DNA of 64,000 nt from Malus domestica (lineage: Eukaryota > Streptophyta > Magnoliopsida > Rosales > Rosaceae). The number at the start of each line of letters is the position of its first letter. Within the stretch, counting starts at the first letter, position 1. The DNA is taken from contig NC_091674.1 in NCBI RefSeq assembly GCF_042453785.1, positions 25,895,001 through 25,959,000 on the forward strand, given 5' to 3'. Made by a program: the position numbers and the translations under genes. Below the pieces are notes generated by a model. That model was not told the origin of the DNA and made no database searches. It saw only the letters and a program-made list of their open reading frames with translations. This document shows positions 10,860 to 63,266 of the stretch, piece by piece.

Positions 10860-11170
10860 CAAGGGAATAGATAGGTTTCAACTAATTGTGGCCTCATTTG
10901 CAAGTCCATTTTGTCTTTGGGGTCTTTATACAATCTATTTGAATCACAAATTGTATAATGTTTTTCAAAATTTTATGAGAAAAAGGGCTCTACATTTTCT
11001 ATAGACCTTGGAACTGAAAAGTCAAATTGTGACAATGCCTTCCCTAAAGCAAGGTGAGTGAACGTATGAAGTAGGTGAAGATTCGTCTTTCGTGTGAGAG
11101 CGATCGGAAAGATGACATGGTCGGACAACGCCACCCAAGATTTCTTGGTGATGTAGAGGTCAAACTCCAT
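10860..11170 (+). promoter_or_regulatory. Relic 3' end of a lost subfamily-1 gene and distal promoter of copy A
   Basis: The string CCTCATTTGCAAGTCCATTT with GGGGTCTTTATACAA (10892-10935) matches the 3' flanks of subfamily-1 genes B, E, F and G, so an older copy probably ended here. From about 11018 the sequence (AAGTCAAATTGTGACA, TGCCTTCC, AACTCCATAATT) matches the upstream regions of C, E and G, marking the promoter of copy A. The coding part of the lost copy is not found. Confidence 0.5.
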
Positions 11171-11181
11171 AATTAATTTTT

Positions 11182-11625
11182 GGCTAAATTGGATTGTTCA
11201 TCCCCGTGGTCATAGGACACTTGTATGATGACCCCCGTGATGAAAAAACTAGGAATTAAACCCCCGTGGTCTAGAATGTTAGCAAATTTAGTCCAAAAGT
11301 AAGATTTCTGTTAAAGTACTGTTAAAAGTTGGGATAAAACTGTATTTTATGTTCCAATTGACATTGAATTGGGGCTTTTTTTTATTTAAAAAATTAAGCA
11401 TTATTTTTTTTGTTAATTGTTATAAAAAAATATTTATTTTAAATGTTAATTGGAACTGAAAATACAGTTTTACCCATACTTTTAACAGTCATTTAACAGA
11501 AATCTTACTTTTGGACTAAATTTGCTAACATTCTTGACCACAGGAGTTTAATTCCTAATTTTTTCACCACAGGGGTCATCATGCAAGTTTCCTATGACCA
11601 CGGGGATGAATAATCCAATTTGGCC
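11182..11625. mobile_element. Mutator-like MITE with very long inverted repeats in the promoter of copy A
   Basis: The element is 444 bp with arms of roughly 180-190 bases. The left end GGCTAAATTGGATTGTTCAT pairs with the reverse complement of the right end, GGCCAAATTGGATTATTCAT, and pairing continues through the CCCCGTGGTC and AGTAAGATTTCTGTTA blocks. A 9-bp target duplication TTAATTTTT flanks it (11173-11181 and 11626-11634). A 9-bp duplication with long inverted repeats is typical of Mutator-like elements. It lies about 165 bp upstream of the copy A start codon. Confidence 0.85.
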
Positions 11626-11789
11626 TTAATTTTTCAAACAAAACCATTAATTCACAACCTTTTTCTAGCTACCGCCCACTTTATTTAAGACAAACACACA
11701 CACACACATATATATAATTATATTTTAAAGACTACTTAGCTCAGATCTATAAGCCTTGCTTCTACAAGTTCTTGCTCTTGCTTTCCAAG

Positions 11790-12249
11790 ATGAGCAGTTT
11801 TCTGGCGAAGTTGGTTTTAGCTGTTGTAACGGTATATCTTCTTCTTGGTGTTTTTCCTGCAACTTCTTCATCAGTAGTACTTCTTCATGGTAATGTTATC
11901 TTCCTTCTGTGATCAGATCCGTATTTACATATTTACTTACTATGTTGGCTTGAATATATCAAAGTTTTCAGGGATCGAACTTTCTAGCTGTTAACATTTC
12001 TTGCTGTGATTTCATGTGGGTGAAGGCGCTGAGAAGAGTAGTTTATCGAGTGTTGACTGCAGAGGTGGCTGGAGAAAGATAATTTGGAGAAAAGAAGGTA
12101 GCTTTGGATGTCTAAGCAAGATTGTTAGCAAGAAAACTGTGCCCATCCGGCGTAGCCTGAGAAAAATCGTTACATCCTCTCCACCGTCACCCCTTAAAAA
12201 TCGACATAAATCACAGGGTGGCTATGCACCTCCTCCACTTATTGCATGA
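11790..12249 (+). CDS. Small secreted peptide precursor, subfamily 1, copy A
   Basis: Two exons, 11790-11889 and 12026-12249, with a phase-1 GT-AG intron give 107 residues. Exon 1 encodes a signal peptide (MSSFLAKLVLAVVTVYLLLG, then VFPATSS). Exon 2 encodes a basic region with two cysteines (VDCRGG and FGCLSK), the block VPIRRSLR, then SSPPSPLKN and a proline tail APPPLIA. RRSL matches the RRxL signature cut by plant site-1 protease (SBT6.1), so the C-terminal PPSP segment is inferred to be released outside the cell as a signalling peptide. The acceptor TGAAG is at the same place in all paralogues. The promoter carries a long-arm MITE at 11182-11625. The family is unrecognised; the gene looks intact. 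Confidence 0.75.
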
Positions 12250-12372
12250 TGATGGCTATCTACGCTTATAAATTTGTCTATGTTTGTTGATCATTCCTTT
12301 GAAATTTATTGTTTCAACTTGTTGCCTCATTGCAAGTCCAATATTTGGCTTTGACGTTGTTTGTCACCAACA

Positions 12373-12540
12373 AGCTCTTTGTGTTGAACCTTGGGAGTCG
12401 ATGGAAGATAGCTCCGTTGCTCTTACACGTACGGCTCGGGTGATATTCCTCCAAATCTCAAAGCTGGGAAGAAGATCATGCTGCCCTGTGCTTACATTAG
12501 GAAGTTTATTGGTGCTAATCCTTGTTTTTCATCTTTTTTC
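12373..12540 (+). pseudogene. Displaced 3' fragment of a methyltransferase-like gene
   Basis: The sequence CAAGCTCTTTGTGTTGAACC, then TTGGGAGTCGAT and GAAGATAGCTCC, matches the region around 8570-8620 of the methyltransferase pseudogene. Here it continues past that copy into GDIPPNLKAGKKIMLPCAY in one frame. It lies directly behind the 3' flank of copy A (CTTGTTGCCTCATTGCAAGT). The parent 3' end is inferred; the reading frame is broken relative to the upstream part. Confidence 0.5.
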
Positions 12541-13080
12541 CTAATTGAATCAACATTGATGTATATCGGATTATTACAATATAAATTTATTGCAATGAGA
12601 AGTTTATTTTAGTGGTTGCAGTAGTAGGTTTGAGATGTATTGTTGGCCTGTGTCCTCATTATTATTTGATTATTAGCCAGGTAATTCAAGTGGAAGAATA
12701 CATCTCAAAATATATAACTTGTATTCTTCAATGGTTTTATACCCAATTTTGACGATGAATTTTGGATTTATCCACCTTCATATTGCGTATATTTTTTTTT
12801 TGAATAAAACAATGATGCACATTATCTTGATCAACTGACATAATTTAAGCATGTAATATAATTATTTTCACACGTCTTACTTTTCCCTTGTAAAGTTTCA
12901 AGATAGAGAGACAACGAGACTCCTTATTGAAAAAGGTGACAAAAGCAAAATTTTCAAAATCGGCTGCTCTATTCATCATAAAGCCTTTAGACCAACATTT
13001 CTGCCCATCTCCTACCACATTGTCAACTTGGGTTTTCTCTTTGTGCCAATTTGGTTTATATATTATATATTATATTAGAT
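12541..13080. other. Spacer between copies A and B
   Basis: AT-rich DNA with no recognisable gene or repeat. Confidence 0.4.
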
Positions 13081-13108
13081 AATATAACTCAAGAAATTAA
13101 ACAGAGAC

Positions 13109-13117
13109 TCTATAAAT
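13109..13117 (+). promoter_or_regulatory. TATA box of copy B
   Basis: CTATAAATC lies about 75 bp upstream of the copy B start codon. The same CTATAAAT string at a similar distance precedes copies D, H and K, which supports it as the core promoter of this family. Confidence 0.55.
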
Positions 13118-13186
13118 CTGGCTTTCAGGGTTCTCACTAGTATGTATTCACACTGAAGTCTAGCTTCTGCAAGTTCTTGTTCTTCC

Positions 13187-13653
13187 ATGATGGGCAGTTT
13201 TCTTGCAAAGTTGGTTTTAGCCCTAGTAGCAGTACATCTTCTTGTGTGTGTTCTCCCTGCAACTTCTACATTACTCCCTCACGGTAAATATAAAAACTCA
13301 AAGCACGACATCATTCAGTTTTACGATTTACCATTTACTGATATTGCATATTGCATTACATGCGTTGTATAGATATAGTTGGATTTTTACTCGATCACTG
13401 TAGCTTATCATATTTTCGAGGATCACACTTTCTCGGTATTAACCTAACAACATTCCTTGATTGGTGTAAATTCTTGTGGCTGAAGGTAGAAAGGAGAGTT
13501 TGTTACATGCTGGGTGCAGAGATGGCTTGAGGAAGATAATTGGAAGAAATCCTGGCTGCAGTCTAAAGAACAATGGTTTCCTCGCCGCCTGCACCGGCTA
13601 AAGGTCAACGATCATCGATGGGTCATTCTACACCTCCTCCTATTGCTAAATGA
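13187..13653 (+). pseudogene. Small secreted peptide precursor, copy B, truncated by a deletion-frameshift
   Basis: Exon 1 (13187-13283) encodes a good signal peptide (MMGSFLAKLVLALVAVHLL) and ends in the usual phase-1 donor. Exon 2 starts at 13486 and reads GRKESLLHAGCRDGLRKII with the family pattern. After NPGCSLKNNG it loses the RRSLR block and shifts frame, ending at 13599-13601 as a 70-residue product. The expected tail survives in another frame as SSPPAPAKGQRSS...TPPPIAK with a stop at 13651-13653. So the inferred cleavage site is gone and the mature peptide is out of frame. A product lacking the peptide could still be secreted. Confidence 0.6.
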
Positions 13654-13795
13654 TTGCTCTCTTCTTTTACCTGTTATATGGATATAGGCCATTCCCAAGA
13701 GAAGTGATAGTGTTTCAACTGTGCTGCCTCATTTGCAAGTACACTTGGCCTGGGGGGTCTTTTTTCAATTCTACAGAAAATCTGTTGTTGCTCTG

Positions 13796-13796
<1 letters not shown>

Positions 13797-13835
<39 letters not shown>

Positions 13836-13836
13836 T
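13797..13836. repeat. (TTA)n microsatellite
   Basis: About twelve TTA units occur in the 3' flank of copy B. The poly-Asn open frame on the minus strand here is an artefact of this repeat. Confidence 0.9.
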
Positions 13837-14059
13837 ATCCAGTTGCTCTGATCTAAATATCTGAACCTTTCCGTTTCAAAAAAGAAAAAAAAAATCCTAA
13901 AATCTGAACTGTTAGAACAATCAAATGTCAAGTGTATAATATATAACAATTATACAGTTTATCTTGAATAGAAATTTCACAAATATACGATATATCTTAC
14001 AATATGAACAATTTAATGAATTTGAATAACAAATCACAAAAAACAAAAAAACACTGACT

Positions 14060-16328: not shown

Positions 16329-16329
16329 A

Positions 16330-16800: not shown

Positions 16801-16908
16801 ATGAGCGGTTTTCTAGCAAAGTTGGTTTTAGTTGTTGCAGCATTGTATCTTCTTCTCGGTGTTTTCCTTAAAAACCATCCACAATATAAGGATAAAGATG
16901 ATGAGTAA
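16801..16908 (+). pseudogene. Small secreted peptide precursor, copy C, exon 1 fused to downstream flank
   Basis: The frame starts like its paralogues (MSGFLAKLVLVVAALYLLLG, then VF) but after GTGTTTTCC continues with LKNHPQYKDKDDE and stops at 16906-16908, for 35 residues. The sequence after the junction matches the intergenic DNA that follows E and precedes H (CATCCACAA...AAGGAT...GATGAG). A deletion has therefore removed the end of exon 1, the intron and all of exon 2. A 35-residue product made only of a hydrophobic leader and an acidic tail is formally possible. Confidence 0.7.
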
Positions 16909-17207: not shown

Positions 17208-17307
17208 GTGAAGATTTGTTTCCCGGCAAAGTTGGTGGTAATTGTTGCATTAGTTTTGTTGTTTCTTTTGGCCCATTTCCGAACAACTTGTGCATTACTT
17301 GCTCATG
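17208..17307 (+). pseudogene. Subfamily-2 peptide gene, copy D, exon 1 relic
   Basis: Exon 1 is open for 33 codons (ICFPAKLVVIVALVLLFLLA, then HFRTTCALLAH) and ends in the phase-1 donor CATG/GTACTT as in copy H. The expected ATG is GTG (17208-17210), because the ATGATGAAG context of H is shortened to GTGAAG. No exon 2 follows; from about 17330 the distal flank of the next module (copy E) begins. It pairs with C just as H pairs with F. Confidence 0.65.
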
Positions 17308-17462
17308 GTACTTAACATATTAGTTGAAAAACTTCACTTGTACTCTTGAACTTTGATTTCAATTTATTGACATGATTATTTGATCTCTGTACCGGTGTAG
17401 ATCATTTCAAGCTTGGGGTTTAGGTTTTTAGTCTCATACTAGTTAATACCTTTGACTTTAGG

Positions 17463-18559: not shown

Positions 18560-18986
18560 ATGAGCAGTTTTCTAGCAAAGTTGGTTTTAGTCGTTGCAGC
18601 ATTGTATCTTCTTCTCGGTGTTTTTCCTGCAACTTCTTCATCACTTCCTCATGGTAATGATGTTTTTCTTGTTGGCGTTTTTCAGCTTTAATATAAGTTT
18701 TCAAGGATAATTTCTTGCAACTGACAATTTTCTTTCTTGCTGCGATTTTCTTGTGGCTGAAGTCAACGAGAAGAATACTTTATCGCAGGTTGACTGTGGA
18801 GATGGCTCGACAACGATGATTGGAAGAAAAGAAGGGAAGTTTGGTAGCCAAAGTGAGATTGTTAGCAAGAAAACTGTGCCCGTCCGGCGCAGCCTAAGAT
18901 TAATCCTTAAGTCGTCGCCGCCTTCACCCGTTAAAAACCCAACAAAGTCACAGGCAGGCACTGCACCTCCTCCACTTCTTATATGA
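18560..18986 (+). CDS. Small secreted peptide precursor, subfamily 1, copy E
   Basis: Exons 18560-18653 and 18763-18986 with a phase-1 intron give 105 residues. The signal peptide (MSSFLAKLVLVVAALYLLLG, VFPATSSS) is followed by VNEKNTLSQVDCGDG, a basic stretch, VPVRRSLRLILK and SSPPSPVKN, ending TAPPPLLI. The second family cysteine is replaced by serine (FGSQSE), so any disulfide between the two cysteines is not possible here. RRSL is kept as the inferred site-1 protease signature. The 0.4-kb promoter is shared with C and G. A hAT MITE lies at 17463-17870 and a second element just after the stop (19009-19448). It looks intact. Confidence 0.78.
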
Positions 18987-19914: not shown

Positions 19915-20460
19915 CCAACCATCCACAAGATAAGGATGAAGAGATGATGAGTCCATCCACAAGGTAAGGATGAAGAGATGATGAGTAATGTATATTCATT
20001 CGTGTTTCTGATGATCAAAACTCTCATTTAATAGTCTAAATATTTTATCCGAGGGAAGATGAAATGAAACTTCCACTAATTATCTTTTAGAGGTAGTTTT
20101 AAGTTGCAAATTTCAATGTGAAAGCACTTACGAAGGGGAAGAAATTGTAAGCTATGGGGGACTAAAAAAGTCCAAGGTTATTAGTCTATTTTTTTGTTAA
20201 ATTTAGGCAGAAGTATATCATTTTTTTTCGGAACACAAATGATATTATCTACACTAAAGGGATGGGATGGGTTGAGTCTCACAATGGACTAGCAATAATG
20301 TGGTTCAAATTCGTCTTTAACGAGAATCGAACCTAAGATCTCTCACTTATAAGTGCAGAGGAATACCGCTAGACCGAAGTACTAATTTTTAAAAACTTTC
20401 TCCTTCACTTCATCTCAATATGTTGAAGATTTTCTAAGTTTAATGTTTCTGCTTCCGATC
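19915..20460 (+). promoter_or_regulatory. Relic subfamily-2 promoter after copy E
   Basis: A 35-bp direct duplication (CCATCCACAAG...GATGATGAGT) at 19919-19987 leads into DNA matching the promoters of D and H (TCTCATTTAATAGTCTAAAT, GTGAAAGCACTTAC, TATGGGGGACTAAAAAAGTC). It ends with ATGTTTCTGCTTCCGAT at about 20440-20459, exactly where the coding exon should start. The gene itself is absent. A SINE (20221-20392) interrupts the promoter. Confidence 0.6.
20221..20392 (-). repeat. Au-like SINE
   Basis: On the minus strand the head reads GGTCTAGCGGTATTCCTCTG, then TAAGTGAGAGATCTTAGG with box B GGTTCGATTC, then AATTTGAACCACATTATTGC and TGAGACTCAACCC. This is the most complete of the three copies in the window. 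Confidence 0.65.
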
Positions 20461-23617: not shown

Positions 23618-24512
23618 ATAGGTTTCATCAAAGCGCCCCGAACCAAAATCCCGAATTCATCAAAGTGTTCCGGACCAAAATCCCGCCCGTCACCACACTC
23701 CTGTACATAAGAGGCGGTGACAATTAACAATGCAACCGTGTTTGCACTCATGGCTTCCACGCAGGCGACCAGAGAAGTTTTCATCAACTCCACAATTCAG
23801 GTGGCTCGGAAATACGGGTTCTACGGCGTTGACTTGGTCTGGGTATTTCCTAAGGATGCTGCGGAAATGTCAAATCTTGCCTTGTTATACAAGGAATGGA
23901 GAAAGGCTCTAAATAATGAGCCTAGAGTTACCGGGAAGCCCCGTTTACTTTTAACCTCCGCGGTATATTATGCATCGAAATTTACTTTTTACGACGGTCC
24001 GAGATCGTATCCGGCCGGGGCAATAAGTAAATATTTGGATTGGGCCAGCCCAATGTGCTATGATTATCATGGGTCATGGGAAAATTTCACCGGGATGAAT
24101 GCTGCGTTGGATGATTCCAACAGTAATATTAGTACTCGTTACGGAATCGGGTCGTGGATTGAAGCCGGTGTCCCACCCAAAAAGCTGGTCGTGGGTCTGC
24201 CTTTGTACGGGCGGACTTGGACGCTCAAGGACTCGAAAGTGAACGGGATCGGGGCACCGGCTTTGGGTGTGGGCTCTTGGGATGGTGTTTTGGTCTATCA
24301 CCAAATCGTTCATTTTAACAAGAGAACCAATGCAACAGTTGTGTTTGATACCGAATCAGCGTCTTACTATTCTTATTCGGGTAGCTCTTGGATCGGGTAT
24401 GATGGTGTCCGGTCCGTGAACGTGAAGGTCCGGTGCGAAGTCGTTGGGCTTGGGCGGATACTTCTCTTGGGCTCTGGGCCAGGACAATGAATGGGCCATA
24501 TCAAAACAAGGT
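23618..24512 (+). pseudogene. GH18 class V chitinase-like relic with ablated active site
   Basis: Homology begins at FHQSAPNQNPEFIKVF (23622), shifts frame near 23725 by one extra base, and continues as a 257-codon frame at 23717-24490. Typical GH18 features are visible: MASTQATREVFINSTI, the barrel strand WASPMCYDYHGSWEN and KKLVVGLPLYGRTWTL. The catalytic strand normally reads FDGVDLDWEFP; here it is FYGVDLVWVFP, so three acidic residues, including the proton-donor Glu, are lost. Near 24434 a two-base deletion shifts the frame; the expected SLGLGGYFSWALGQDNEWAI is read in the next frame to about 24510. The N-terminal third and signal peptide are missing. Confidence 0.8.
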
Positions 24513-25418: not shown

Positions 25419-25824
25419 ATGAGCAGTTTTCTAGCAAAGTTGGTTTTAGTTGTTGCAGCATTGTATCTTCTTCTCGGTGTTTTTCATGCAACTTCTTCAT
25501 CACTTCCTCATGGTAATGTTATTTTTCTTCTTGGTGTTTTTTGGCTTTAATATAAGTTTTCAAGGATAACTTTCTTACAACTACCAATTTTCTTTCTTGC
25601 TACGATTTCTTGTGGCTCAAGGCAATGAGAAGAATACTTTACCGGGTGTCGAATGTGGAGATGACTTGATGAAGATAATTGGAAGAAAAGAAGGGAAATT
25701 TGGATGTCAAAGTGAGATTGTTAGCAACAAAATTGTGCCCGTTCGGCGCAGCCTAAGATTAATCCTCAAGTCGTCGCCACCCTCACCCATTAAAAACGCA
25801 CAAAAGTCACAGAAAAGGTCTTGA
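25419..25824 (+). CDS. Small secreted peptide precursor, subfamily 1, copy F
   Basis: Exons 25419-25512 and 25622-25824 with a phase-1 intron give 98 residues. The signal peptide matches copy E apart from FHAT in place of FPAT. Exon 2 reads GNEKNTLPGVECGDD, IIGRKEGKFGCQSE (both cysteines kept), then VPVRRSLRLILK and SSPPSPIKN. The product ends KSQKRS, eleven residues or so earlier than E, because the GTAPPPLLI tail is replaced by a stop. If the tail matters for processing or activity, F would make a different mature end. It is the first half of a module whose second half (H) was pushed 5 kb away by the Copia insertion. Confidence 0.78.
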
Positions 25825-26533: not shown

Positions 26534-26835
26534 TGTAAAATCTAGAGACTCAGTTTGTTTCACTTCAATTGCATACCCCATCAATCATGGGATGCATGTA
26601 TTTATAATACTTCCATACTTACAGATTAGGTTTGAAAACCCTAGATACAAGAAGTTGTGAACAACTAAAATACAATCAGATCCTAAAGATAGGATTACAA
26701 CCAAAAGATCAGATTACAACAGAAACAAATACCAATCATTCCTATAAACTAGGAACGGCTGAAAAGATAGAAGTTTAAACCAAAGTAAACTCCACAGGTT
26801 TCGTTGATGTGCTGGACAACTGACTTCGTCTAACA
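26534..26835 (-). repeat. 3' LTR of the young Copia element
   Basis: 302-bp terminal repeat. The pol reading frame runs into it and stops at 26775-26777, so the last 20 or so residues of the polyprotein are encoded by the LTR. Confidence 0.95.
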
Positions 26836-29800
26836 GCCCCCCGCAAGCTGACAGGTTGTGGAACAACCGGAAGGTTGGAGACAAGAAACTTAAACCGAGA
26901 CGACGACAGGCCTTTGGTAAACAAGTCCGCAATTTGATCTTGGGAACAAATATAATTAACCAATAGTTGACCACGAACAACCTTCTCCCTGACATAGTGA
27001 TAATCAACTTCTAAGTGTTTTGTTCGTGCATGAAATACGGGATTGGACGCTAGGGCAATGGAGGAGATATTATCGCACCATATTTGAGGAGGAATCAAAT
27101 GCAAATGCAAGTCTTTGAATAAAGACCTGAACCAGGAGAGCTCCGCCGCAGTGTATGCTAACTGCCGGTACTCGGCTTCAGCACTAGACCGAGATACGGT
27201 CTTCTGTTTCTTAGAGCTCCAGGAGACAAGGTTGGAACCAAGATATATACAAAAACCACCCGTAGAATGCCGAGTATCCGGATTGCCTGCATAATCTGCA
27301 TCAGAGAAGGCACTGAGTTGAGTAGTCCCAGGCTTATAGAGAAGACCATGATTATGCGTAGCCTTCAAATATCGCAAAATCCGTTTGACAGCCATCCAGT
27401 GAGACGTTGTAGGAGCATGCATAAATTGGCACACTTGGTTGACAACATAGGACAGATCGGGGCGTGTAATGGTGATATATTGTAGTGCTCCAACGACACT
27501 ACGATATACCTCAGGTTTGTCAAACGAGTCTCCCTTATACGCACTGAGCTTATGTCCCGAAGAGACCGGAGTAGAGATAGGCTTGGCTTCAGTAAATTTT
27601 GTACGAGAAAGCAAGTCTAATGCATATTTAGACTGACACAAATGCATTGCAGTCCTATAGTAGTTGACTTCGATACCTAAAAAATAACGAAGATGACCTA
27701 AATCTTTCATCGAAAACAACGTACCAAGTCGCGTAATCAACCTGGAAATTTGAGGAGGACTATTGCCGGTGATTAGTATATCATCGACATAAATTAAAAG
27801 AATAATATACACACCTTGCTTTCTGAAGACAAACAAACTGTAGTCACAACTAGATTCGTGAAAACCAAGTTCAAGCAGAAAATCGGAGAACCTTTGAAAC
27901 CAAGCCCTGGGCGCTTGTTTTAAACCATAAATACTGCGTTGAAGCTTACACACATGTGTAGGGCATTGTTGATCAACAAAACCCGGTGGCTGACGCATGT
28001 AAACTTCTTCCTGCAAAAAACCATGCAAAAACGCATTTTGCACATCCAGCTGCCTGACAGGCCATTTGTTGGACACGGCAAGACTTAAAACAAGCCGTAT
28101 CGTACTGTGCTTAACAACGGGACTGAAGGTCTCACTGTAATCCACTCCAGCCTGTTGATGAAACCCGTTGGCGACAAGTCTAGCTTTATAGCCTTCAATC
28201 GAACCATCAGCACGTCGCTTCAACTTGAACACCCATTTATTTGGCAGCAGATTCATGTTGGGACGATGAGGAACCAAACTCCAAGTTCCACATCACTGCA
28301 GGGCATTAAACTCTTGAACCATGGCATGCCTCCACTCCTGAGACTTGACAGCTTGACTGAAACACGTTGGTTCAACATGGAAGTTGTCAACAGTTAAATG
28401 CATAGCATATTTTGGATTGGGTTTATGGATGCCTGACTTGGAGCGTGTGGTAATTGAATGGGGTTGGCCACTGGCAGTGACAAGGAGCACAGATTCAGAA
28501 GGTACGCCAACGTGCTCATTTGATGGTTGGATAGTCTGGGCAGGAGCGGATGACACTGGTATTGGAGGGCAGGGTGGGACGGCAGGAGGGTGAGATTGGG
28601 TAATAGGGTGGGAGGCTTCTGTGGCAATAGGTATTTGGGTGGGAGTAACGGCTTGGGCAAGGGATGGTACGACCAGATCAAGATGACGAGGTTGAGGCAT
28701 ACTAGGGCAACTAGGGTTATCAAAAGTTAATAATAAGTCTGTGGCTTGGGTAGTACCTGAGGGTGTGACACTTGCCGAAGAAGATGTGAGACCCTTAAAA
28801 GGGAAGGAGTCCTCATCGAATAGGACATGGCGAGACACATAAATGCGTCTTGTAGACAGATCCAAGCACTTGTAACCTTGGTGATTCAGTGAATAACCTA
28901 AGAAGACACACGGTTTTGATTTTGGTTGAAGTTTATTTTGCATGTAAGGTACCAACCAAGGAAAACATCGACATCCAAAAACCTTTAAAGTGTCATACTT
29001 TGGCTGTTTTTGAAAAAGTTTTTCATAAGGAGACGCATAGGATAGAAGTTTGGTGGGAAAACGATTTATCAAATACAAGGCCGTGGAGCATGCATCAAAC
29101 CAAAATCGGTTAGGCATGTGAGATTTAGAAAGCATGACTATGCTTGTTTCAACAATATGGCGATGTTTGCGCTCGGCAATTCCATTTTGTTCAGGGTGTT
29201 TGGGACATGAAAACCTTTGTGAAATGCCATTAGCAGCGAGAAATTTAGTAAAGGCATGACTTTTATATTCGCCACCTTCATCACATTGAAGAGTTTTAAG
29301 TGGAAAATTCAGCATTTTTTCAACATTGGCCTTAAATTGAACAAAGATTTGAAACACTTCACTTTTGTTTTTCATTGGAAAAATCCAAGAATAGCGAGAG
29401 TAATCATCCACAAACAAAACATAGTAACGAAAACCTTCATTTGAAATAATGGGAGAACACCACACATCAGAATGTACCAGTTGCAACGGAAACTTAGAAA
29501 CAGACTCGGACAATTGAAAAGGTAACTTAGTACTCTTACCTAAGGGACAAGACTCACAAAAATTGACCTTTGAAGTACCATGAATTGGTACCAAATTATT
29601 TGAAATTAAAAACTTAATGATAGAATTGGCAGGATGACCTAGCCTCGCATGCCATGTATTCACTGAACACCGAAGCCCTACAAATGCAGATATTGGATGC
29701 TTGAGTTGTCCAATGCCACATGGAAATGGATATAATCCATTCTCACATCTCCCTTGGAAAAGCGTCTTCCGGGTCTTGAGGTCCTTAACAAGGAAAAAGG

Positions 29801-31133
29801 AGGGAAAAATCAGTAGGTAGCAATGGTTGTCTAATGTAAATTTATGTGCGGAGAGAATATTTTGGGAGGCAGTGGGACAGTGATGAATATTAGGTAAGTC
29901 AAATGAGCAAGTGGAAGTATGTAATGTAGTTGAACCAGTATGAGAGATAGAAATGCCAGATCCATTACCTACACCCCCAATAGTTTCATTACCATTGTAC
30001 TCTTTAGGGTTAGCCAGATTCTGAAGATCAGGAGTAATGTGAGCGTTGGCACCTGTGTCGAGAAGCCAGGTTCCATTCTTTTGTTTGTTGACAGAGACTG
30101 GAGAAGACGTCATTGCTGTGAGCTTGGTCGCGGGAATTCTGCCTTCAAATGCAGCATTCATTCTGTGATAACAATCAAGGGCCGGATGACCTGGTTTGCC
30201 ATAGATTTGGCAAACAATTCTCTCACCATTAGAGTTAACCCGCTCGCTACTGCATGGCAGAGTGCGGAAGTGGGTGTTGTTGTTGTTACGAGGTGCAGGT
30301 CCTCGTTGATTGAAAGAATTACCCCGAAAGGATGAAGATGCTCCTCTTCCAGTCCCTCGAGTGCGACCAAACCCTTGTCCTCGAGAGGCAACAAAGGCAT
30401 TAACCGGCGCAGATTCCACCAACGAAGCAGTGTGCACAGCCATGCGACGTTCAGTGGTTAACAGCAAAGCCTCAAGGGTAGGGTAGGTAATTGGTGAATC
30501 ACGGGCTTGAGCTGCACTGACAGTCATCTCAAAAGCAGGTCCGAGATTGTTCAACACAATCTGAACAAGTTCATCATCACTCACAGGTTGCCCTGCTAGG
30601 GCAAGGTTGTCAGCGATCGCGTTCATGCGATCTAGGTAATCTGCCACAGAAAGATCACCTTTCTTTGTCTGCATCAATTCATTCCGCAAAAACAAAATCC
30701 TGTTTTGAGAAGTAGAAGCATACCGTTGCTCGAGTGCTTCCCAGGTGGCGCGAGCAGTCCTCTTGCTTGCCACGACAGACAATACAGACGCTGTTAAAGA
30801 TCCATTGATCCAGCTGAGGATCATTTGATCCTGTTGAACCCATGCAGTGTAGGCAGGATCCACAGTTGTTGAACCAGATACGTACTTGGACGGGGACACC
30901 AAGGTACCATCCACATATCCCATCAGATCTCTACTTTTGAGAATTGGGAGAATTTGGGCCAACCACAGTGGGTAGTTGGTCCTGTCAAGTTTGATGTTAA
31001 CGACGGTGGAAAAAGGGTGGAAGGACGGATTTGTAGTGGGGTTGGGAGTAGGGTTGGTATTGGAGGATGAGGGGGAAACATTGTTTTCAGCCATTGGAGC
31101 GTGGGGAAGAAAAGGATCGATGTCGTTAGACAA
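26775..31133 (-). pseudogene. Copia gag-pol polyprotein interrupted by one in-frame TGA
   Basis: The frame starts at 31133 and is open for 946 codons. It meets TGA at 28293-28295 after FNALQ, then continues in the same frame (CGTWSLVPHRPN...) to 26775. Domain order is gag (from WLAQILPILKSRDL), a zinc knuckle CQIYGKPGHPALDC, protease LLDTGANAHIT, integrase zinc finger HARLGHP...CESCPLGK, integrase core with D, D and E (HSDVW, DDYSRYSW, EQNGIAERKH), reverse transcriptase with IYVDDILITG, and RNase H (SDADYAGNPDTRHSTGG). In the knuckle the second Cys of the CCHC pattern is Tyr. One nonsense change (TGA could derive from CGA) separates integrase from reverse transcriptase. Otherwise the element appears intact. 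Confidence 0.93.
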
Positions 31134-31151
31134 AAAAAGGGCTCAATACCA

Positions 31152-31453
31152 TGTAAAATCTAGAGACTCAGTTTGTTTCACTTCAATCGCATACCCCATC
31201 AATCATGGGATGCATGTATTTATAATACTTCCATACTTACAGATTAGGTTTGAAAACCCTAGATACAAGAAGTTGTGAACAACTAAAATACAATCAGATC
31301 CTAAAGATAGGATTACAACCAAAAGATCAGATTACAACAGAAACAAATACCAATCATTCCTATAAACTAGGAACGGCTGAAAAGATAGAAGTTTAAACCA
31401 AAGTAAACTCCACAGGTTTCGTTGATGTGCTGGACAACTGACTTCGTCTAACA
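31152..31453 (-). repeat. 5' LTR of the young Copia element
   Basis: 302-bp terminal repeat, nearly identical to the other LTR. On the minus strand it starts the element and is followed by the primer-binding site. Confidence 0.95.
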
Positions 31454-31781: not shown

Positions 31782-32206
31782 ATGATGAAGAATTGTTTCC
31801 CAGCAAAGTCGGTGCCAATTGCAGCATTAGTAATGTTGCTTCTTTTGGTCCATTTCCAAACAACTTGTGCATTACTTCCTCATGGTACTTAACTATATAA
31901 TATCTTCCCTTGAGATACGTATGTATGTAACGTGTTAGATAGTTACACTACATTTCATTTGAGGTTTTTCACTTTCTTGACTCAATCATCTGGTACGAAT
32001 TAGTTTCTCGATTGCTATGATTTTCTTGTACAGCTGAAGGTGGTGATCATGCCAAAAACTTTGTGCCGCATGTTGAATGTAGACTCAAAAGTGAGATTCT
32101 TAGCCATTGTAATACAATAGTCCCCATTGGGCGCAGCCTAAGACCAGTCACCCCGCCGAATCCACCTTCGCCCACCAGAAATCTAGTCAAGCACCCTTAT
32201 ATTTAA
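31782..32206 (+). CDS. Small secreted peptide precursor, subfamily 2, copy H
   Basis: Exons 31782-31884 and 32040-32206 with a phase-1 GT-AG intron give 89 residues. Exon 1 encodes a signal peptide (MMKNCFPAKSVPIAALVMLL, LLVHFQTTCALLPH); a second ATG at 31785 is equally possible. Exon 2 reads GGDHAKNFVPHVECRLKSEI, with cysteines in VEC and SHC, then VPIGRSLRPV and PPNPPSPTRN, ending LVKHPYI. The first arginine of RRSL is Gly, so the inferred site-1 protease signature is weakened to GRSL. The C-terminal NPPSPTRN matches I and, more loosely, K (PSSPDRN). The exons are short and easily missed. It looks intact and is the best representative of subfamily 2. Confidence 0.72.
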
Positions 32207-41670: not shown

Positions 41671-42143
41671 ATGAGCAGTTTTCTAGAAAAGTTGGTTTTA
41701 GTTGTTGCAGCATTGTATCTTCTTCTCTGTGTTTTTCCTGCAACCTCTTCATCACTTCCTCATGGTACTGATGTTTTTCTTTTTGGTCTTTTTCAGCTGT
41801 ATTGTAAGTTTTAAAGGATAACTTTCATGCAACTGACAATTTTCTTTCTTGCTGCGATTTTCTTGTGCCTGAAGGCAACGAGAAGAATACTTTATCGCAC
41901 GTTGGCTGTGGAGATGGCTTGACGAAGATAATTGGAAGAAAAGAAGTAAAGTGTGGATATCAAAGTGAGATTGTTAGCAACAAAGTTGGGCCCGTCCGGC
42001 GCAGCCTAAGATTAATCCTTACGTTGTCGCCGCCTTCACCCATTAAAAACGCACCAAAGTCACAGACAGGAACGCTCTGCTCCTCCCCCACTTCTTATAT
42101 GATGATTGCTATATATGTTTATAATCAGTGTTCTAAGCGTTAG
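41671..42143 (+). CDS. Small secreted peptide precursor, subfamily 1, copy G, with transposon-derived tail
   Basis: Exons 41671-41764 and 41875-42143 with a phase-1 intron give 120 residues, the longest copy. Exon 1 matches E apart from FLEKLVL and LCVFP. Exon 2 reads GNEKNTLSHVGCGDG, IIGRKEVKCGYQSE, then PVRRSLRLILT and SPPSPIKN. The second cysteine has moved two places (KCGYQ instead of FGCQ). After KSQTGT a small frameshift replaces APPPLLI with LCSSPTSYMM, and translation runs on into the MITE at 42125, ending NQCSKR with the stop inside it. The inferred RRSL site and PPSP core are intact, so a peptide with a changed C-terminus is possible. Confidence 0.68.
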
Positions 42144-42504: not shown

Positions 42505-42585
42505 TTGTCAAACGATAGATTTTGTTAGATGAGATGTTAGATTAGTTAACGACGGAGTTCGAACACACGCCGTTATGCAAGGGTA
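42505..42585 (-). repeat. Partial SINE-like repeat
   Basis: GATAGATTTTGTTAGATGAG...GACGGAGTTCGAAC matches the segment at 2630-2700 and is the second copy of that repeat in the window. Confidence 0.4.
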
Positions 42586-42981
42586 GTTAGTGTTTCTACT
42601 TGTTGCCTCATTTGCAAGTCCGTTTGGCTCTCAGACCATTCGCAAGCCACTTTCGACTTAAACTTCAAAGCGTGTCAATGTATTCGGTTTAAACTTCAAA
42701 GCGTGTCGATGTGTTCGACTAATTTTTGAGTATACAATCATCTCTGCAATCTCTACACAAGGAACTCAAAAGGCCGGATCGCGTGTGTGTATTTGTACAA
42801 AAACAGATATAGAGCTCTATAAAAAAAAAAACAAAAAAAACAAAAACCTTAACAACTTGTTATATTCTGATTGATTCTACAAGAGTGCTATATACTTTGT
42901 GTGCCTTCTCCCTCTCTTTTTTTTTTTTTTTGAGAATCTCGACGGTATGAGATAAATTTATTGATATGAAAAAAGAAGAAG

Positions 42982-53455: not shown

Positions 53456-54070
53456 CAACAACAACAACAACAAAGCCTTTTCCCACTAAGTGGGGTCGGC
53501 TATATGAATCCTAGAACGCCATTGCGCTCGGTTTTGTGTCATGTCCTCCGTTAGATCCAAGTACTCTAAGTCTTTTCTTAGGGTCTCTTCCAAAGTTTTC
53601 CTAGGTCTTCCTCTACCCCTTCGGCCCCGAACCTCTGTTCCGTAGTCACATCTTCGAACCGGAGCGTCAGTAGGCCTTCTTTGCACAAGTCCAAGCCACC
53701 GTAACCGATTTTCTCTCATCTTTCCTTCAACTTCGGCTACTCCTACTTTACCTCGGATATCCTCATTCACAATCTTCTCATTTCTCGTGTGCCCACACAT
53801 CCCACGAAGCATCCTTATCTCCGCTACACCCATTTTGTGTACGTGTTGATGCTTCACCGCCCAACATTCTGTGCCATACAACATCGCTGGCCTTATTACC
53901 GTCCTATAAAATTTTCCCTTGAGCTTCAGTGACCTACGACGGTCACACAACACACCGGATGCACTCTTACACTTCATCCATCCAGCTTGTATTCTATGGT
54001 TGAGATCTCCATCTAATTCTCCGTTCTCTTGCAAGATAGATCCTAGGTAGCGAAAACGGTCGCTTTTTGT
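53456..54070 (-). mobile_element. RTE-like LINE, 3' fragment with TTG-repeat tail
   Basis: On the minus strand the frame encodes the C-terminal part of a LINE polyprotein ([46 protein letters not shown]) and ends at 53486. It is followed by the 3' end and a (TTG)n tail (53456-53474, seen as ACAACAACA on the plus strand). It is 5'-truncated at about 54070, within the region after the reverse transcriptase core. The tail type and protein fit the RTE clade. Confidence 0.85.
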
Positions 54071-57521: not shown

Positions 57522-59210
57522 GTCACTGAGTGGGATCGGCTATATGAATCTTTGAACGCCATTGTGCTCGGTCCTGTGTCATGTCCTCCGTTAGATCCAA
57601 GTACTCTAAGTATTTTCTTAGAGTCTTTTCCAAAGTTTTCCTAGGTCTTCCTCTACCCCTTCGGCCCTGAACCTCTGTCCCATAGTCGCATCTTCTAATC
57701 GGAGCGTCAGTAGGCCTTCTTTGCACATGTCCAAACCACCGTAACCGATTTTCTCTCATCTTTCCTTCAATTTCGGCTACTCCTACTTTACCCCGGATAT
57801 CCTCATTCCTAATCTTATCCTTTCTTGTGAGCCCACACATCCAACAAAGCATCCTCATCTCCGCTACACCCATTTTGTGTACGTGTTGATGCTTCACCGC
57901 CCAACATTCTGTGCCATACAGCATCGCCGGCCTTATTGCCGTCCTATAAAATTTTCCCTTGAGCTTCAGTGGCATACGGCGGTCACACAACACGCCGGAT
58001 GCACTCTTCCACTTCATCCATCCATCTTGTATTCTATGGTTGAGATCTCCATCTAATTCTCCGTTCTTTTGCAAGATAGATCCTAGGTAACGAAAACGAT
58101 CGCTCTTTGGTATTTCTTGATCTCCGATCCTCACCCCTAACTCGTTTTGGCCTCCATTTGCACTGAACTTGCACTCCATATATTCTGTCTTTGATCGGCT
58201 TAGGCGAAGACCTTTAGATTCCAACACTTCTCTCCAAAGGTTAAGCTTTGCATTTACCCCTTCCTGAGTTTCATCTATCAACACTATATTGTCTGCGAAA
58301 AGTATACACCAAGGAATATCATCTTGAATATGTCCTGTTAACTCATCCATTACCAACGCAAAAAGGTAAGGACTTAAGGATGAGCCTTGATGTAATCCTA
58401 CAGTTATGGGAAAGCTTTCGGTTTGTCCTTCATGAGTTCTTACGGCAGTCTTTGCTCCTTCATACATATCCTTTATAGCTTGGATATATGCTACTCGTAC
58501 TCCTTTCTTCTCTAAAATCCTCCAAAGAATGTCTCTTGGGACCCTATCATACGCTTTTTCCAAATCTATAAAGACCATGTGTAAATCCTTTTTCCCATCT
58601 CTATATCTTTCCATCAATCTTCGTAAGAGATAGATTGCCTCCATGGTTGAGCGCCCTAGCATGAACCCGAATTGGTTGTCCGAAACCCGTGTCTCTTGCC
58701 TCAATCTATGCTCAATGACTCTCTCCCAGAGCTTCATTGTATGACTCATTAGCTTAATACCCCTATAGTTCATGCAATTTTGTACGTCGCCCTTATTCTT
58801 GTAGATAGGCACCAAAGTGCTCGTTCGCCACTCATTTGGCATCTTCTTCGTTTTCAAAATCCTATTGAAAAGGTCAGTGAGCCATGTTATACCTGTCTCT
58901 CCCAAAACTTTCCACACTTCGATTGGTATATCGTCTGGGCCTACTGCTTTTCTATGCTTCATCTTCTTCAAAGCTACAACCACTTCTTCCTTCCGGATTC
59001 GACGATAAAAAGAGTAGTTTCTACACTCTTCTGAGTTACTCAACTCCCCTAAAGAAGCACTCCTTTCATGCCCTTCATTGAAAAGATTATGAAAATAACC
59101 TCTCCATCTATCTTTAACCGCGTTCTCTGTAGCAAGAACCTTTCCATCCTCATCCTTGATGCACCTCACTTGGTTTAGGTCCCTTGTCTTCTTTTCCCTT
59201 GCTCTAAGGT
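57522..59210 (-). mobile_element. RTE-like LINE, larger fragment with reverse transcriptase
   Basis: The minus-strand frame (to 57523) encodes the reverse transcriptase and C-terminal region: [93 protein letters not shown], then [12 protein letters not shown]. The catalytic box is normally FADD; here the second Asp is Asn (AAT), which should abolish polymerisation. The endonuclease domain is missing (5' truncation at about 59210, in [12 protein letters not shown]). The 3' end lacks the TTG tail. The first 12 codons of the frame belong to flanking DNA. Confidence 0.88.
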
Positions 59211-59359
59211 TCCACATGATCAGTTCTCTTTTAGGATATACTTGCAAGTGTGAAAGACAAATTCGTCAACTATTGAAAATATTAAAGCATGGAATTCTTC
59301 TTCATCCCAACCAACCATCCAAAGTCTATTAAAATCTATGCTTCTCCCTGCTTCCAGTG

Positions 59360-59821
59360 ATGAAGAATGGTTTCCCAGGAAAGTTGGTGGTAATTGCAGC
59401 ACTAATGCTTCTTCTTTTGGCGGATCTCCGAGCAACTTGTGCATTAGTTCCTCATGGTAAATAATAATATCTTCCTCTTCCTCATGGTTATTTCTTTTTA
59501 TGCTTCGCTATTTTCTCGACTGGATCATCTGGTAACAATTAGTTTCTTGCTTGCTTGGTGTGATTTTGTTGTGTGGTTGAAGGTGGTGATCATCATTAGA
59601 GTTTGATATCGCATGTTGACAATAAAGATGGCACGAGAAAGGTCACAAAAGAAGGTTGCTTTGGATGTCAAAATGAGATGTTTAGCAAGACTACTGCTAT
59701 AATATTGCCCATCCGACGCAGCCTGAGACCAATCAACCTGCCAAAGCCACCTTCACCCACAAGAAGTGGATTACACAGCCAGTTTGTTCCGGCACCGCCA
59801 GACCTGTCCGTTGATGTTTAG
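59360..59821 (+). pseudogene. Small secreted peptide precursor, subfamily 2, copy I, with premature TAG
   Basis: Exon 1 (59360-59456) encodes MKNGFPGKLVVIAALMLLLL, ADLRATCALVPH and ends in the normal phase-1 donor. Exon 2 starts at 59583 and reads GGDHH, then TAG at 59596-59598. Beyond it the frame is open for 74 codons: SLISHVDNKDGTRK, EGCFGCQNE, ILPIRRSLRPINL and KPPSPTRSG, ending PAPPDLSVDV. No alternative acceptor restores the frame. Everything except this one codon looks preserved, so it is either a recent pseudogene, an allele, or a gene needing readthrough. A LINE ends about 150 bp upstream. Confidence 0.68.
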
Positions 59822-60174: not shown

Positions 60175-60282
60175 TCTCTCTTTTAGGATAGCTCTTAAGC
60201 GTGGAAAAGCTTATTGAGGGGGTACAGAGAATGAAAGTTATGGGACTAAAAAGTCTAAGTTGAAGCCAAATGCGTTTTTTTT

Positions 60283-60452
60283 ATTTTTATTTTTAAATAA
60301 ACGATCTTATTTACGCTAAGGGGGAGGAAGATGAGTTTAGACTCATAATGGACTAGCAATAATGTAGTTCAAATTCGCCTTGGCGAGAATCAAACATAAG
60401 ACCGCTCACTTACAAGTGAAGAGGAATACTACTAGATCGTTGTATTAAGCGG
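60283..60452 (-). repeat. Au-like SINE
   Basis: The minus strand reads CTAGTAGTATTCCTCTTCAC, TTGTAAGTGAGCGGTCTTATG, box B GTTTGATTC and GGCGAATTTGAACTACATTA, like the copies at 8693 and 20221. Confidence 0.6.
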
Positions 60453-60617
60453 CAATTCGTTAACCTTTTTAGCCCCGCATAAAAAACCGTCAACTTTTTG
60501 AACAAGAGCCTCTTACATACCCTCTCAAGTTTTGGTTGTTGGATCCAATGATTTGAAGAAAATCAATAGACAAAATTAACGACGGTATGTGAGAGGTAAA
60601 AAAGAGTGTGTGACTAA

Positions 60618-60827
60618 GTACATGTTTAGTACTGAGGTGCTTTTATAAAAAGTGGGTATCAAAAAAAGATGAGCTCAAAAAGGTATTTGGTAAACACTTT
60701 AAAATAGCTTATTTTCACAGTTTTGGGTGAAAAAAGTTGAAAACGTGAAGCAGCAAAAATGAGCTTATTCTCACAGCACAGCAGAAGCAGTTTTTTTATC
60801 AAAGCACAACAATACCAAACCAGCCAC
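60618..60827. mobile_element. PIF/Harbinger-like MITE, second copy
   Basis: TAA flanks both sides (60615-60617, 60828-60830). The right end AATACCAAACCAGCCAC and internal GCTTATTCTCACAGCACAGC match the MITE in the old Copia LTR (51605-51978). It is shorter, at about 210 bp. Confidence 0.75.
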
Positions 60828-60910
60828 TAATCTTGAAAAATCTAAATTAATTATTCAGTCATGTAAAATTCTTCTTCATTCCTGAACCATGCAGAGTCTA
60901 TAAAATGATC

Positions 60911-62286
60911 AACGTGGGAGGTCACACCTAATGTACACTGAGATCATTTGTGATAAAATCTCACACGTACAATAGATAATTAAATTGAAAACAATATCAG
61001 TGCCAAACTTAAAAATTTATCAAATACATGTTGCGAGTTATATATTAGTTAAAATGTAAATAGTAGTTTGTTGTCTCACATTGACAAAGTGTATATGTAA
61101 TATCAATTGTAACTCCTATATATTCCACTTTAAAGATTAATGATATACAAAACATTACCAAATATTGTCAGATATATATTTTTGGTATTTACCATATTTA
61201 ATTTAACTTGGTATACATTGTATCTACGAGTATTTTTGCTAGCATTCTCTTTCTTGGAAATAGTGCTACCACGGCTACCAGTTGTGAGAATACTTAATTT
61301 CCATTGAAAATAGGGTTTTAACGAAAAATTTCTGGTACTATTCATTTTAACGACAAATCATATTTTTACACTAAAAGTCAATCTTAGTACTATTCACTTT
61401 ACCCTTTATTTTGTTCTTATCGTTAAAATTCAAAGTTTTCAAACCTTTTTAATTAATTTTCTTTTGAAAATATGGTATCGACAAAGAATAAACTAATCAA
61501 TCACTTTACTTCAACTTTTGTTGGCTGGTCAACTATGGTATACGACCTTTATTTATTTATTTATTTTTGGTAAAAAGGAAAGTCCACATCAAGGACTAAC
61601 AAAAAAAACTAACCAAAAAAGAAAAGAGAAACAAGGCCAGGGAACGACACAAGCAACAACGTTATGTCCCCTTAACTCCCTTTATCTAGACTTGACTTAA
61701 TGTGGGCAAAGTAGATCATCTTTGTTCAGAATATGAACAATCGAAGATTGGAGTCTGTCGATCTAAGTATAGTTGCTCATCTCTAAAATCTTTACAAATG
61801 CAAGTCTGTCAGCCACAAATTAGCAGATCTAGAAATCCAAGACCATTTGCATTGTTGGAAGGCACCTTTCAGCTGCAAAGCTTGACCGAGCACAGGAACC
61901 TTCTGCCAACTGCCTTGATAAATAGAATTACATATACGGCCTTTATAGGGATTATCATTTTTTCAGATTCTTGATTGTGGATTAATCTCAAATTTTTCTC
62001 TCATTTTTTAACATTCGGAATACATTAATTAAATTGAAATATGGCAAAACAATCTGATTCATTTCCAAAATGATTTTTATTTTTATTTTATATAAGCTGG
62101 TACGTAAGACGTGAAAATTTTAGTGGAGGAAAATAAAATAAAATACAATGAGGCACCTAATGCAAGTGATGATTTATTCGTCCAGAGATGTCTCTCATAT
62201 TTTAGTAGACTTGTGACAAGTGACTTCTCACACCGGTGCACTGGTGATAGGATATTCAAAGTTATTTTTTCTGCTAGCTACCGGAA
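60911..62286. other. Upstream region of copy J
   Basis: No gene is seen. It holds the MITE-like repeat at 61302-61466. From about 61960 it matches 44630-44850 (module-level duplication). Frames at 61518-61974 are low-complexity or unmatched. Confidence 0.45.
61302..61466. repeat. MITE-like repeat, copy 2 (inverted)
   Basis: In reverse complement this matches 108-257: AACTTTGAATTTTAACGATA, AGGGTAAAGTGAATAGTACT, AGATTGACTTTTAGTG. Confidence 0.55.
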
Positions 62287-62386
62287 GTGAGTGGTTTTCC
62301 GGCTAAGTTGGCGGTGGTAATTGTAGCACTAGTACTATTACTTCTTGTGCAAGATTTTTGAACAACATGTATATTACTTCCTCCTG
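62287..62386 (+). pseudogene. Subfamily-2 peptide gene, copy J, exon 1 relic
   Basis: The frame SGFPAKLAVVIVALVLLLLV followed by QDF, a TGA stop and TTCILLPP matches exon 1 of H and I in position and donor site (CCTG/GTAATT). The ATG is GTG (62287-62289), a stop lies near its end, and no exon 2 is found within the following 0.5 kb. It is clearly dead. Confidence 0.65.
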
Positions 62387-62819
62387 GTAATTAAGAAAAA
62401 TAATAAACACACACTCCTTTTATAGCCTTTCACACACTTATTTAGTTATGTCCGTTATCTTTATTTGATTTATTTAGTCTAGTGACCAAAAGTTAAGAGG
62501 TGTGGTAAGAACCCATTTTAAATGTTTACAACCTGTCCTTGCCAGCCATCCTACCAAACGGCTCTTAGGGGACTTGTGAGTCTGTGACAAGTTAGTTGTC
62601 ACAACACATATTGGTGATTGCACTAAATTGAGGAGCATGATAAGTGAGATTCTTTTATGTAATTAAGTTTTAGTCTGAGTGACATTAAATTTTTAAAGAA
62701 TTAAAATGTACACTACCTTCAATGAACGTATGAAAGAATATGCTATTAGAATAAATGAAAGCTAAATATGGGACGAAAAGAATGGAAGACTTAGAGGTCA
62801 ACCTTTTGAAAGTTAAAGT

Positions 62820-62828
62820 CTATAAATA
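62820..62828 (+). promoter_or_regulatory. TATA box of copy K
   Basis: CTATAAATA lies 57-65 bp upstream of the copy K start codon, in the same GTCTATAAAT context as in D and H. Confidence 0.55.
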
Positions 62829-62884
62829 TCATCGTTATTAACGTTGCGGTGACAGGATTTTCGAAGTTATTGTTTCTGCTTCCA

Positions 62885-63266
62885 ATGATGAATGGTTCTT
62901 CAGCAAACCTGGTGGTCATTGCAACATTAGTGTTGCTTCTTATGGGGGATCGCCTAGCAACTTGTGGACTTCTTCCTCACGGTAATTAATAATTATCTTC
63001 CTTGTTTTTGAGATCTCTAAGTATTGGAAACTTTAATTGACTTTAGTTAAATTAAATTTAAATATCCTTCACCAAATTAATGCCTTGATTTTATTTGGTA
63101 ATTAATTTCTTGCTTGTGATTTGCTCATATGGTTGACGACGGTTGCTTTGAATGTCAAAGTGATATTGATCAACAAGTAATACCCGTTCGCCGCAGCCTT
63201 AGGCCAGTGACTGGGTCGAAGCCGTCTTCACCTGATAGAAATCCAAGACCAGGAATGGGCCGTTAG
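62885..63266 (+). CDS. Small secreted peptide precursor, subfamily 2, copy K, with changed splice acceptor
   Basis: Exon 1 (62885-62981) encodes MMNGSSANLVVIATLVLLLM, GDRLATCGLLPH with the normal phase-1 donor. At the expected acceptor the family GAAG is GACG (near 63135), so no AG is available there. The downstream frame is intact: DDGCFECQSDIDQQ, VIPVRRSLRPV, GSKPSSPDRN, ending PRPGMGR at 63264-63266. An AG at 63176-63177 would join exon 1 in frame at 63178, producing a 62-residue precursor that skips the cysteines but keeps RRSLR and the C-terminal peptide. Whether it is used is unknown; it may be a pseudogene. Unlike A-I it keeps a compact Pro/Arg tail. Confidence 0.5.

Follow-up and report, generated by a model that had tools for sequence, protein, structure and literature searches.

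A tandem family of candidate secreted-peptide precursor genes in apple, with relatives in six genera of Rosaceae

A 64 kb window of Malus domestica contig NC_091674.1 (positions 25,895,001 to 25,959,000; 37% guanine plus cytosine), by which we mean the whole stretch of DNA that was analysed, carries a tandem cluster of small genes, named here copies A to K, five of which are complete. Judging from the predicted proteins, we give an even chance to the reading that these complete copies encode precursors of secreted peptide ligands, in a Rosaceae family that resembles the IDA and GLV peptides in its logic and is a member of neither group. The evidence that carries this reading is a hydrophobic N-terminus encoded by a separate first exon, together with an R-x-L-x site and a PPxP motif placed at a nearly fixed distance from an asparagine in the C-terminal part of the protein.

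Results

Structure of the cluster and of the complete copies

A nucleotide similarity search within the window, using exon 1 of copies E and I as queries, located 11 exon-1 copies, every one on the + strand, with starts at about 11790, 13190, 16801, 17211, 18560, 25419, 31785, 41671, 59360, 62287 and 62888; each of the nine remaining copies was matched by at least one of the two queries with an expectation value (E) of 1.1e-6 or lower. When exon 2 of E was used as the query, matches were obtained in F (1e-27), A (6e-27), H (1.5e-26), I (5e-12), K (2e-6), G (1e-4) and pieces of B (6e-4). A complete two-exon frame was present in five of the 11 copies (A, E, F, G and H), and the other six were damaged or partial, with a recognisable but damaged second exon in B, I and K and exon 1 alone in C, D and J. 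A sequence-only reading, prepared earlier from the letters of the window, had proposed a tandem family of at least eleven genes sharing a two-exon plan with a phase-1 intron behind the signal-peptide exon. The tandem repetition was borne out by the 11 exon-1 copies; the shared plan held for the five complete copies and failed for B, C, D, I, J and K, so that the count of complete genes is five and not eleven. Its placement of the cluster start at 10860 was not upheld either, as this position (10860..10911, + strand) holds a short class I 3'-flank relic without a coding part, 81% identical to 42578-42625 in the flank of H, and no twelfth gene.

The complete copies, all on the + strand, are closely matched by annotated Malus proteins (database relatives are cited here by P numbers), except for G, which belongs to class II. 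Copy A (107 amino acids; core RSLR-KIVTSSPPSPLKN) consists of exon 1 at 11790-11889 and exon 2 at 12026-12249, stop codon included, and is identical to Malus P0005 at 104 of 107 residues. Copy E (105 amino acids; core RSLR-LILKSSPPSPVKN), with exons at 18560-18653 and 18763-18986, shares 103 of 105 residues with Malus domestica EV2_015834 (P0001). Copy F, which has a short tail (98 amino acids; 25419-25512 and 25622-25824), agrees with Malus baccata P0002 at 97 of 98 residues, and copy H, with an altered C-terminal tail (120 amino acids; 41671-41764 and 41875-42143), with Malus P0003 at 119 of 120, the C-terminus being changed likewise in this counterpart. Copy G (90 amino acids; core RSLR-PVTPPNPPSPTRN) has exons at 31785-31884 and 32034-32206, and an alternative exon-2 acceptor is possible at 32040. 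The phase-1 intron was confirmed with GT..AG borders in all five (136 nucleotides (nt) in A, 109 in E, 109 in F, 149 in G and 110 in H), and annotated relatives imply the same exon junction; in the database records P0009, P0015 and P0016 the reading apparently runs from the intron into the same exon 2.

The best N-terminal 12-residue window reached a hydropathy of 2.97-3.14 in the five complete copies, and the best after residue 35 only 0.60-1.15, in agreement with the earlier description of short precursors of a secreted type. The fragment following RSLR in these copies has a charge of +2 to +5 and contains 3-7 prolines.

Conserved residues and spacing of the core

Conservation was assessed in 14 sequences from three classes, chosen among 30 (25 database proteins plus the five complete window copies) after near-duplicates and partial and fused models had been dropped. 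Only five columns were invariant in these representatives, namely R74 and L76, which belong to R-x-L-x, and P84, P85 and P87, which form PPxP; N90 was kept in 12 of the 14. The R-x-L-x motif, a putative cleavage site of the type that SBT6.1 recognises in GLV precursors (RXXL or RXLX), was found in all 30 sequences (25/25 database proteins and 5/5 complete copies), and PPxP in 29, the exception being P0005, which is absent from the representative set. Among the database proteins the site is spelled RSLR in 15, RCLR in P0013, RSLQ in P0022 and R(R/K)LQ in eight; in copies A, E, F and H the overlapping RRSL also fits RXXL, while RSLR fits RXLX. The distance from R-x-L-x to the Asn was 13-15 residues in 22 of the 25 database proteins and exactly 13 in the five complete copies. 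A strict pattern of R.L. followed by 13-15 residues ending in (K/R)N matched 11 of the 14 representatives vs 0.08 of 14 after per-sequence shuffling, a count in which the rows are related and are no independent events.

Between classes I and II the mean identity was 0.51 in the core and 0.40 in exon 1. The number of cysteines in the 30 sequences varied from none (P0007) to seven (P0006), so that the two-Cys region, which the sequence-only reading had listed among the shared features, is no mark of the family.

Relatives and their distribution

The first database search yielded nine proteins from 24 candidates, a profile search 22 from 7682 and a divergent Rosa query eight from 1641, which combined to 25 different proteins. 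The 20 with a species name all came from Rosaceae (Malus, Pyrus, Prunus, Rubus, Fragaria and Rosa), and open family members were present in each of these six genera; distant relatives outside Rosaceae could have escaped, as the search, run on a very large database, depends on shared five-residue words. Tandem pairs seem to occur in Rosa sericea and Prunus campanulata as well, to judge from consecutive locus tags (ABKV19_012168/012169 in the former, ACE6H2_017941/017942 in the latter). The source labels were mostly hypothetical, uncharacterised or unnamed, with a few odd names; 'Wall-associated receptor kinase' (P0011) and 'Expansin-like EG45' (P0025) were set aside because Pfam finds no such domain, and 'Secreted protein' (P0013) was not used.

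Two alignments were built, A1 with 12 members (eight of the nine database proteins then known and four window models) and A2 with 13 of the 22 then known. A midpoint-rooted tree of 21 rows (15 of the 25 database proteins, the five complete copies and copy I) split class III (Rosa, Fragaria and Prunus) from the rest with support 100/99, and gave the same support to class I, which joins Prunus, Rubus, Fragaria, Rosa and Malus proteins with window copies A, E, F and H. The broad class II (G, I, Prunus P0011 and P0013, and Pyrus P0014) formed no single clade, and G lay on a long branch. Since Prunus and Rosoideae members occur in both class I and class III, the split between these two looks older than those lineages. 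Class III queries from Rosa, Fragaria and Prunus matched only the known copies in the window.

Five annotated Prunus models (P0012 and P0017-P0020) begin like class II and finish as class III within a single protein, the Prunus mume member being labelled 'isoform X2'; the cause is either splicing that spans tandem copies or a faulty annotation.

Domains, structure and tests against known families

No family scored above the Pfam cut-off in the 12 members of A1, where the best two sub-threshold families had E of 0.069 and 0.19, nor in 10 further relatives, where DUF2112, WLM, DUF4179 and Mfp-3 all remained below it (E 0.095-0.16). Three PDB matches (E 0.49-1.3) were taken as chance. An AlphaFold2 model of P0001 contained a single helix at residues 2-21 and no other structure (mean predicted local distance difference test 59.4, predicted template modelling score 0.21), as would be expected of a signal peptide followed by an unstructured pro-region; the model is weak evidence, because the alignment behind it was shallow (13 sequences).

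Fourteen patterns of known peptide families were scanned on the 30 sequences. Twelve had no match, SxS matched 14 sequences and a bare HN matched one, in the pro-region of P0024. The patterns without a match included the IDA/IDL core P.PPS.PS[KR]RHN, the CLE core P.G[PS].P.H[NH], the DY sulfation site and the P(I/V)HN end of GLV/RGF/CLEL, RALF YI.Y, the CTNIP motif, and those of CEP, PIP, PSK, PEP and CAPE, PEP being scanned at the extreme C-terminus only; Pfam gave no RALF match either. The C-terminal SxS of SCOOPs was not found as such, since in the 14 sequences with SxS anywhere it lies outside the conserved columns. The sequence-only reading had recognised no known family in these genes, and the Pfam, PDB and peptide-pattern scans gave no accepted assignment.

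The density of TTGAC, the W-box core, upstream of the 11 copies was 1-4 per 1000 bases vs 2.41 per kb in the window, and in view of this lack of enrichment the W-box core was discarded as a sign of immune control. Five motif strings and five locus tags of the family returned no paper in the open text of PubMed Central, which leaves supplements and subscription papers outside, and a term search of the first 300,000 characters of the 2025 plant peptide hormone review PMC11756074 retrieved neither RSLR nor PPSP. The genes are already in the databases, mostly as hypothetical proteins, and as a candidate peptide signal the family is unstudied in the open literature.

Selection

Pairwise Nei-Gojobori ratios of nonsynonymous to synonymous change (w) over the whole gene among A, E, F, G and H ranged from 0.49 to 0.88, the upper value belonging to the E-H pair, and single exons of close pairs reached about 1 (0.98 for exon 2 of E-H, 1.07 for exon 1 of F-H). 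The pooled ratio of nonsynonymous to synonymous differences per site (pN/pS) in A, E, F and H was 0.63 for the whole gene (bootstrap 0.45-0.91), 0.34 for the core (0.13-0.70), 0.42 for exon 1 (0.20-0.92), 0.71 for the middle (0.43-1.45) and 1.06 for the tail (0.50-2.18); these values come from a small number of closely related paralogues, and independence of codons is assumed in the bootstrap. When G was added, the whole gene gave 0.67 (0.51-0.88) and the core 0.51 (0.27-0.83), and the core had the lowest point estimate of the regions with and without G. The sequence-only reading had named a ratio near 1 for A, E, F, G and H as evidence against itself; the pooled value lies below 1 over its whole range, and the E-H pair alone comes closest.

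Damaged copies, duplicated flanks and neighbouring elements

All six damaged or partial copies also lie on the + strand. Copy B (13190..13653) has an intact signal-peptide exon and a frame-broken exon 2 without RSLR. Copy C (16801..16866) is an exon-1 remnant with a class I upstream flank, and copy D (17211..17310) a class II exon-1 remnant without ATG, which together with its flank is 86% identical to G. The class II copy I (59360..59821) has an in-frame TAG five codons past the conserved acceptor and a core ending in TRS in place of TRN; for its Pyrus relative, P0014, the annotation gives an open protein. Copy J (62287..62388), an exon-1 remnant, has GTG in the place of the start codon and is interrupted by a stop, and the damaged class II copy K retains exon 1 (62888-62981) and a piece of exon 2 (63138-63266) without the conserved acceptor.

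The duplicated unit exceeds the gene. Within class I, long upstream flanks are common to C, E, F and H, and downstream flanks to E, F and H, and A and B match these copies over shorter stretches. Within class II, D and G have more than 300 nt of flank in common, and I, J and K are similar to them around exon 1. A class II upstream-flank relic without a coding exon at 19966-20459, 90% and 84% identical to the flank of G, is perhaps a further lost copy.

Several other elements are interspersed with the cluster or border it. A Copia-type retrotransposon on the - strand (26534-31453), with gag, integrase and reverse transcriptase domains, has terminal repeats covering at least 26534-26835 and 31152-31453 that are identical where compared and so point to an insertion of recent date. 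The start codon of G follows about 330 nt past the right end of the element, so that the promoter of this copy may have been touched. A GH18 chitinase-like reading frame (23711-24487, + strand; Pfam Glyco_hydro_18, E 3.3e-48) stands between E and F. To the left of the cluster, a histone deacetylase domain at 4245-5695 (+ strand) is covered by two successive frames (profile positions 1-141 and 140-295) and probably represents a histone deacetylase gene that is either interrupted by an intron or broken. The same side holds a degenerate short tandem repeat (9374-9737) with units like TGTACCTAAATGTCAATACCGAAA, and just upstream of A there is an inverted repeat (11175-11632) with 194-nt arms that are 89% complementary and 70 nt apart, similar to a miniature inverted-repeat transposable element. 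A reverse transcriptase frame of the RVT_1 type, resembling a long interspersed nuclear element (57523-59262, - strand), immediately precedes copy I, and a 92% copy of part of it was found at 53484-53783.

Discussion

A candidate pathway from precursor to ligand

Starting from the hydrophobic N-terminus and the conserved motif that are seen in the protein sequences, we infer cleavage, trimming, hydroxylation, a receptor and a signalling role. The signal peptide encoded by exon 1 is strongly indicated. In the secretory pathway, a subtilase of the SBT6.1/S1P type would then cut the precursor at the invariant R-x-L-x, which is RSLR in the window, and the tail past PPSPx(K/R)N would be trimmed to leave an Asn-ended peptide, about 13 residues long (13-15 in most relatives), whose prolines could be hydroxylated; the predicted products would be LILKSSPPSPVKN from E and PVTPPNPPSPTRN from G. 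The least certain step is the last one, where a leucine-rich-repeat (LRR) receptor kinase might read the peptide by clamping the free Asn at its C-terminus, in the way that HAESA binds IDA. The family would thereby combine processing of the GLV type with recognition of the IDA type, and its tandem duplication, decay and C-terminal change give it the look of a local signal with rapid turnover, comparable to the SCOOPs.

The characterised systems supply precedents for these steps. In vitro, SBT6.1 cleaves GLV1 behind RRLR and behind RRRAL, two sites described in the consulted sections of PMC4983112 as reminiscent of the canonical RXXL/RXLX, and the GLV1 overexpression phenotype is strongly suppressed by a change at the second site and partly reduced by a change at RRLR (passages of PMC4983112 and PMC7162652). 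The IDA precursor runs on past its Asn (excerpted text of PMC8110903), and Arg407 and Arg409 of HAESA hold the carboxylate of the last Asn of the IDA dodecamer, an extended IDA being unbound (excerpted text of PMC4848090).

Likeness to IDA/IDL extends to the signal peptide and to a short Pro/Ser core with PPS(x)P, a basic residue and Asn, followed by a tail; the active form of IDA is a dodecamer, and 13-15 residues are predicted for the Rosaceae peptides. PPPAPSKN of Rosa P0024 comes closest to PPSAPSKRHN of IDA, as the latter is given in the portion of PMC8110903 consulted. The family differs from IDA in having no RHN (PS[KR].HN in 0 of 30 sequences), in placing R-x-L-x just before the core, and in its intron after the signal peptide, whereas IDA genes are not known to carry introns. 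With GLV/RGF/CLEL it shares an SBT6.1 site of the RRLR type in the precursor and a peptide that contains Pro and has Asn close to the end; unlike GLVs, it has neither DY...HN nor the P(I/V)HN ending, and its R-x-L-x site immediately precedes the proposed peptide. In style the family comes nearest to the SCOOPs, which are likewise confined to one plant family, the Brassicaceae, and tandemly duplicated, with twelve in tandem on Arabidopsis chromosome 5 (consulted part of PMC8448819), although SxS occurs in fewer than half of the Rosaceae sequences. The CTNIP/SCREW ligands of HSL3 are also made from small secreted precursors, but they have two conserved cysteines (consulted part of PMC9191895), whereas the Rosaceae family has no CTNIP motif and a variable number of cysteines.

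Weighing the ligand reading against its rivals

Several observations weigh against the ligand reading. The R-x-L-x motif is short, and its use as a cleavage site in these proteins is assumed. In GLV1, the loss of RRLR, the site most like RSLR, only partly lowers activity (text seen of PMC4983112), and SBT6.1 cuts by themselves do not yield the mature peptide (text seen of PMC4983112 and PMC7162652). None of the 30 cores ends in the (R)HN of IDA, CLE and GLV, and the spacing rule to Asn is broken by P0012, P0014 and P0022. Nor is conservation restricted to the core, since EGxFG (G56, F58 and G59), K67 and the tail proline P101 are each kept in 13 of the 14 representatives, identity within class I is barely higher in the core (0.68) than in exon 1 (0.66), and between classes I/II and class III it is lower in the core (0.30 vs 0.41). 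The pN/pS range of the core overlaps those of exon 1 and the middle, so that the core does not stand out clearly, and the idea that the tail is free of constraint was dropped, given that its value of 1.06 ranges from 0.50 to 2.18.

Conservation outside the core also speaks for the explanation that the small protein functions in its entirety, for instance as a secreted cell-wall or receptor-regulating protein in which R-x-L-x and PPxP make internal contacts. A second conserved block (EGxFG) and a conserved tail proline would be expected of such a protein, as would a core whose conservation does not clearly exceed that of exon 1, and in class I the tails of Prunus P0004 and window copy A resemble each other (KSQGGYAPPPL). 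We nevertheless regard it as unlikely, as cysteines are not constant, no known domain was found, and only an N-terminal helix with no further fold was predicted, albeit with low confidence from 13 sequences and hence as weak evidence. Precursors of secreted peptide hormones in general have a signal peptide, a pro-region that varies and a conserved core at the C-terminus; the family has the hydrophobic N-terminus, the helix of the model and the invariant C-terminal motif, yet its pro-region also has conserved positions.

A product that acts directly on microbes and not via a receptor, as a basic, proline-rich antimicrobial defence peptide, would fit the short, positively charged and proline-containing fragment after RSLR, and tandem turnover with decay, as seen in the cluster, is common in antimicrobial peptide genes. 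Five invariant positions, a near-fixed spacing and three classes suggest a fixed recognition surface rather than a composition, and we consider this alternative quite improbable. Still less probable, in our estimate, is that a lineage-specific family is by now mostly in decay in the apple lineage and retains little function, its modest dN/dS (nonsynonymous to synonymous substitution ratio) reflecting past constraint. The damaged or partial state of six of the 11 copies, the pairwise w of 0.49-0.88 and the changed C-termini of F and H are in line with decay; against it, A, E, F and H differ by only 1-3 residues from annotated Malus proteins, open members exist in each of the six genera, and the pooled pN/pS of the five complete copies is 0.67 (0.51-0.88).

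A bolder form of the ligand reading, which we put forward as a tentative possibility and would hold to be rather doubtful, is that of a hormone private to Rosaceae, in which an R-x-L-x-cleaved, Asn-ended ligand of 13-15 residues with PPxP has its own LRR kinase and serves in apple, peach, rose and strawberry as the counterpart of SCOOP-MIK2.

Even the general reading by itself turns genes filed as hypothetical into a testable hypothesis, and the core is short enough for direct synthesis and testing. If the bolder form were true, it would be a further example, next to the SCOOPs, of a tandem array of peptide signals invented by a single plant family, and apple, pear, peach, strawberry and rose would share a peptide signal of their own that is invisible to work on model plants.

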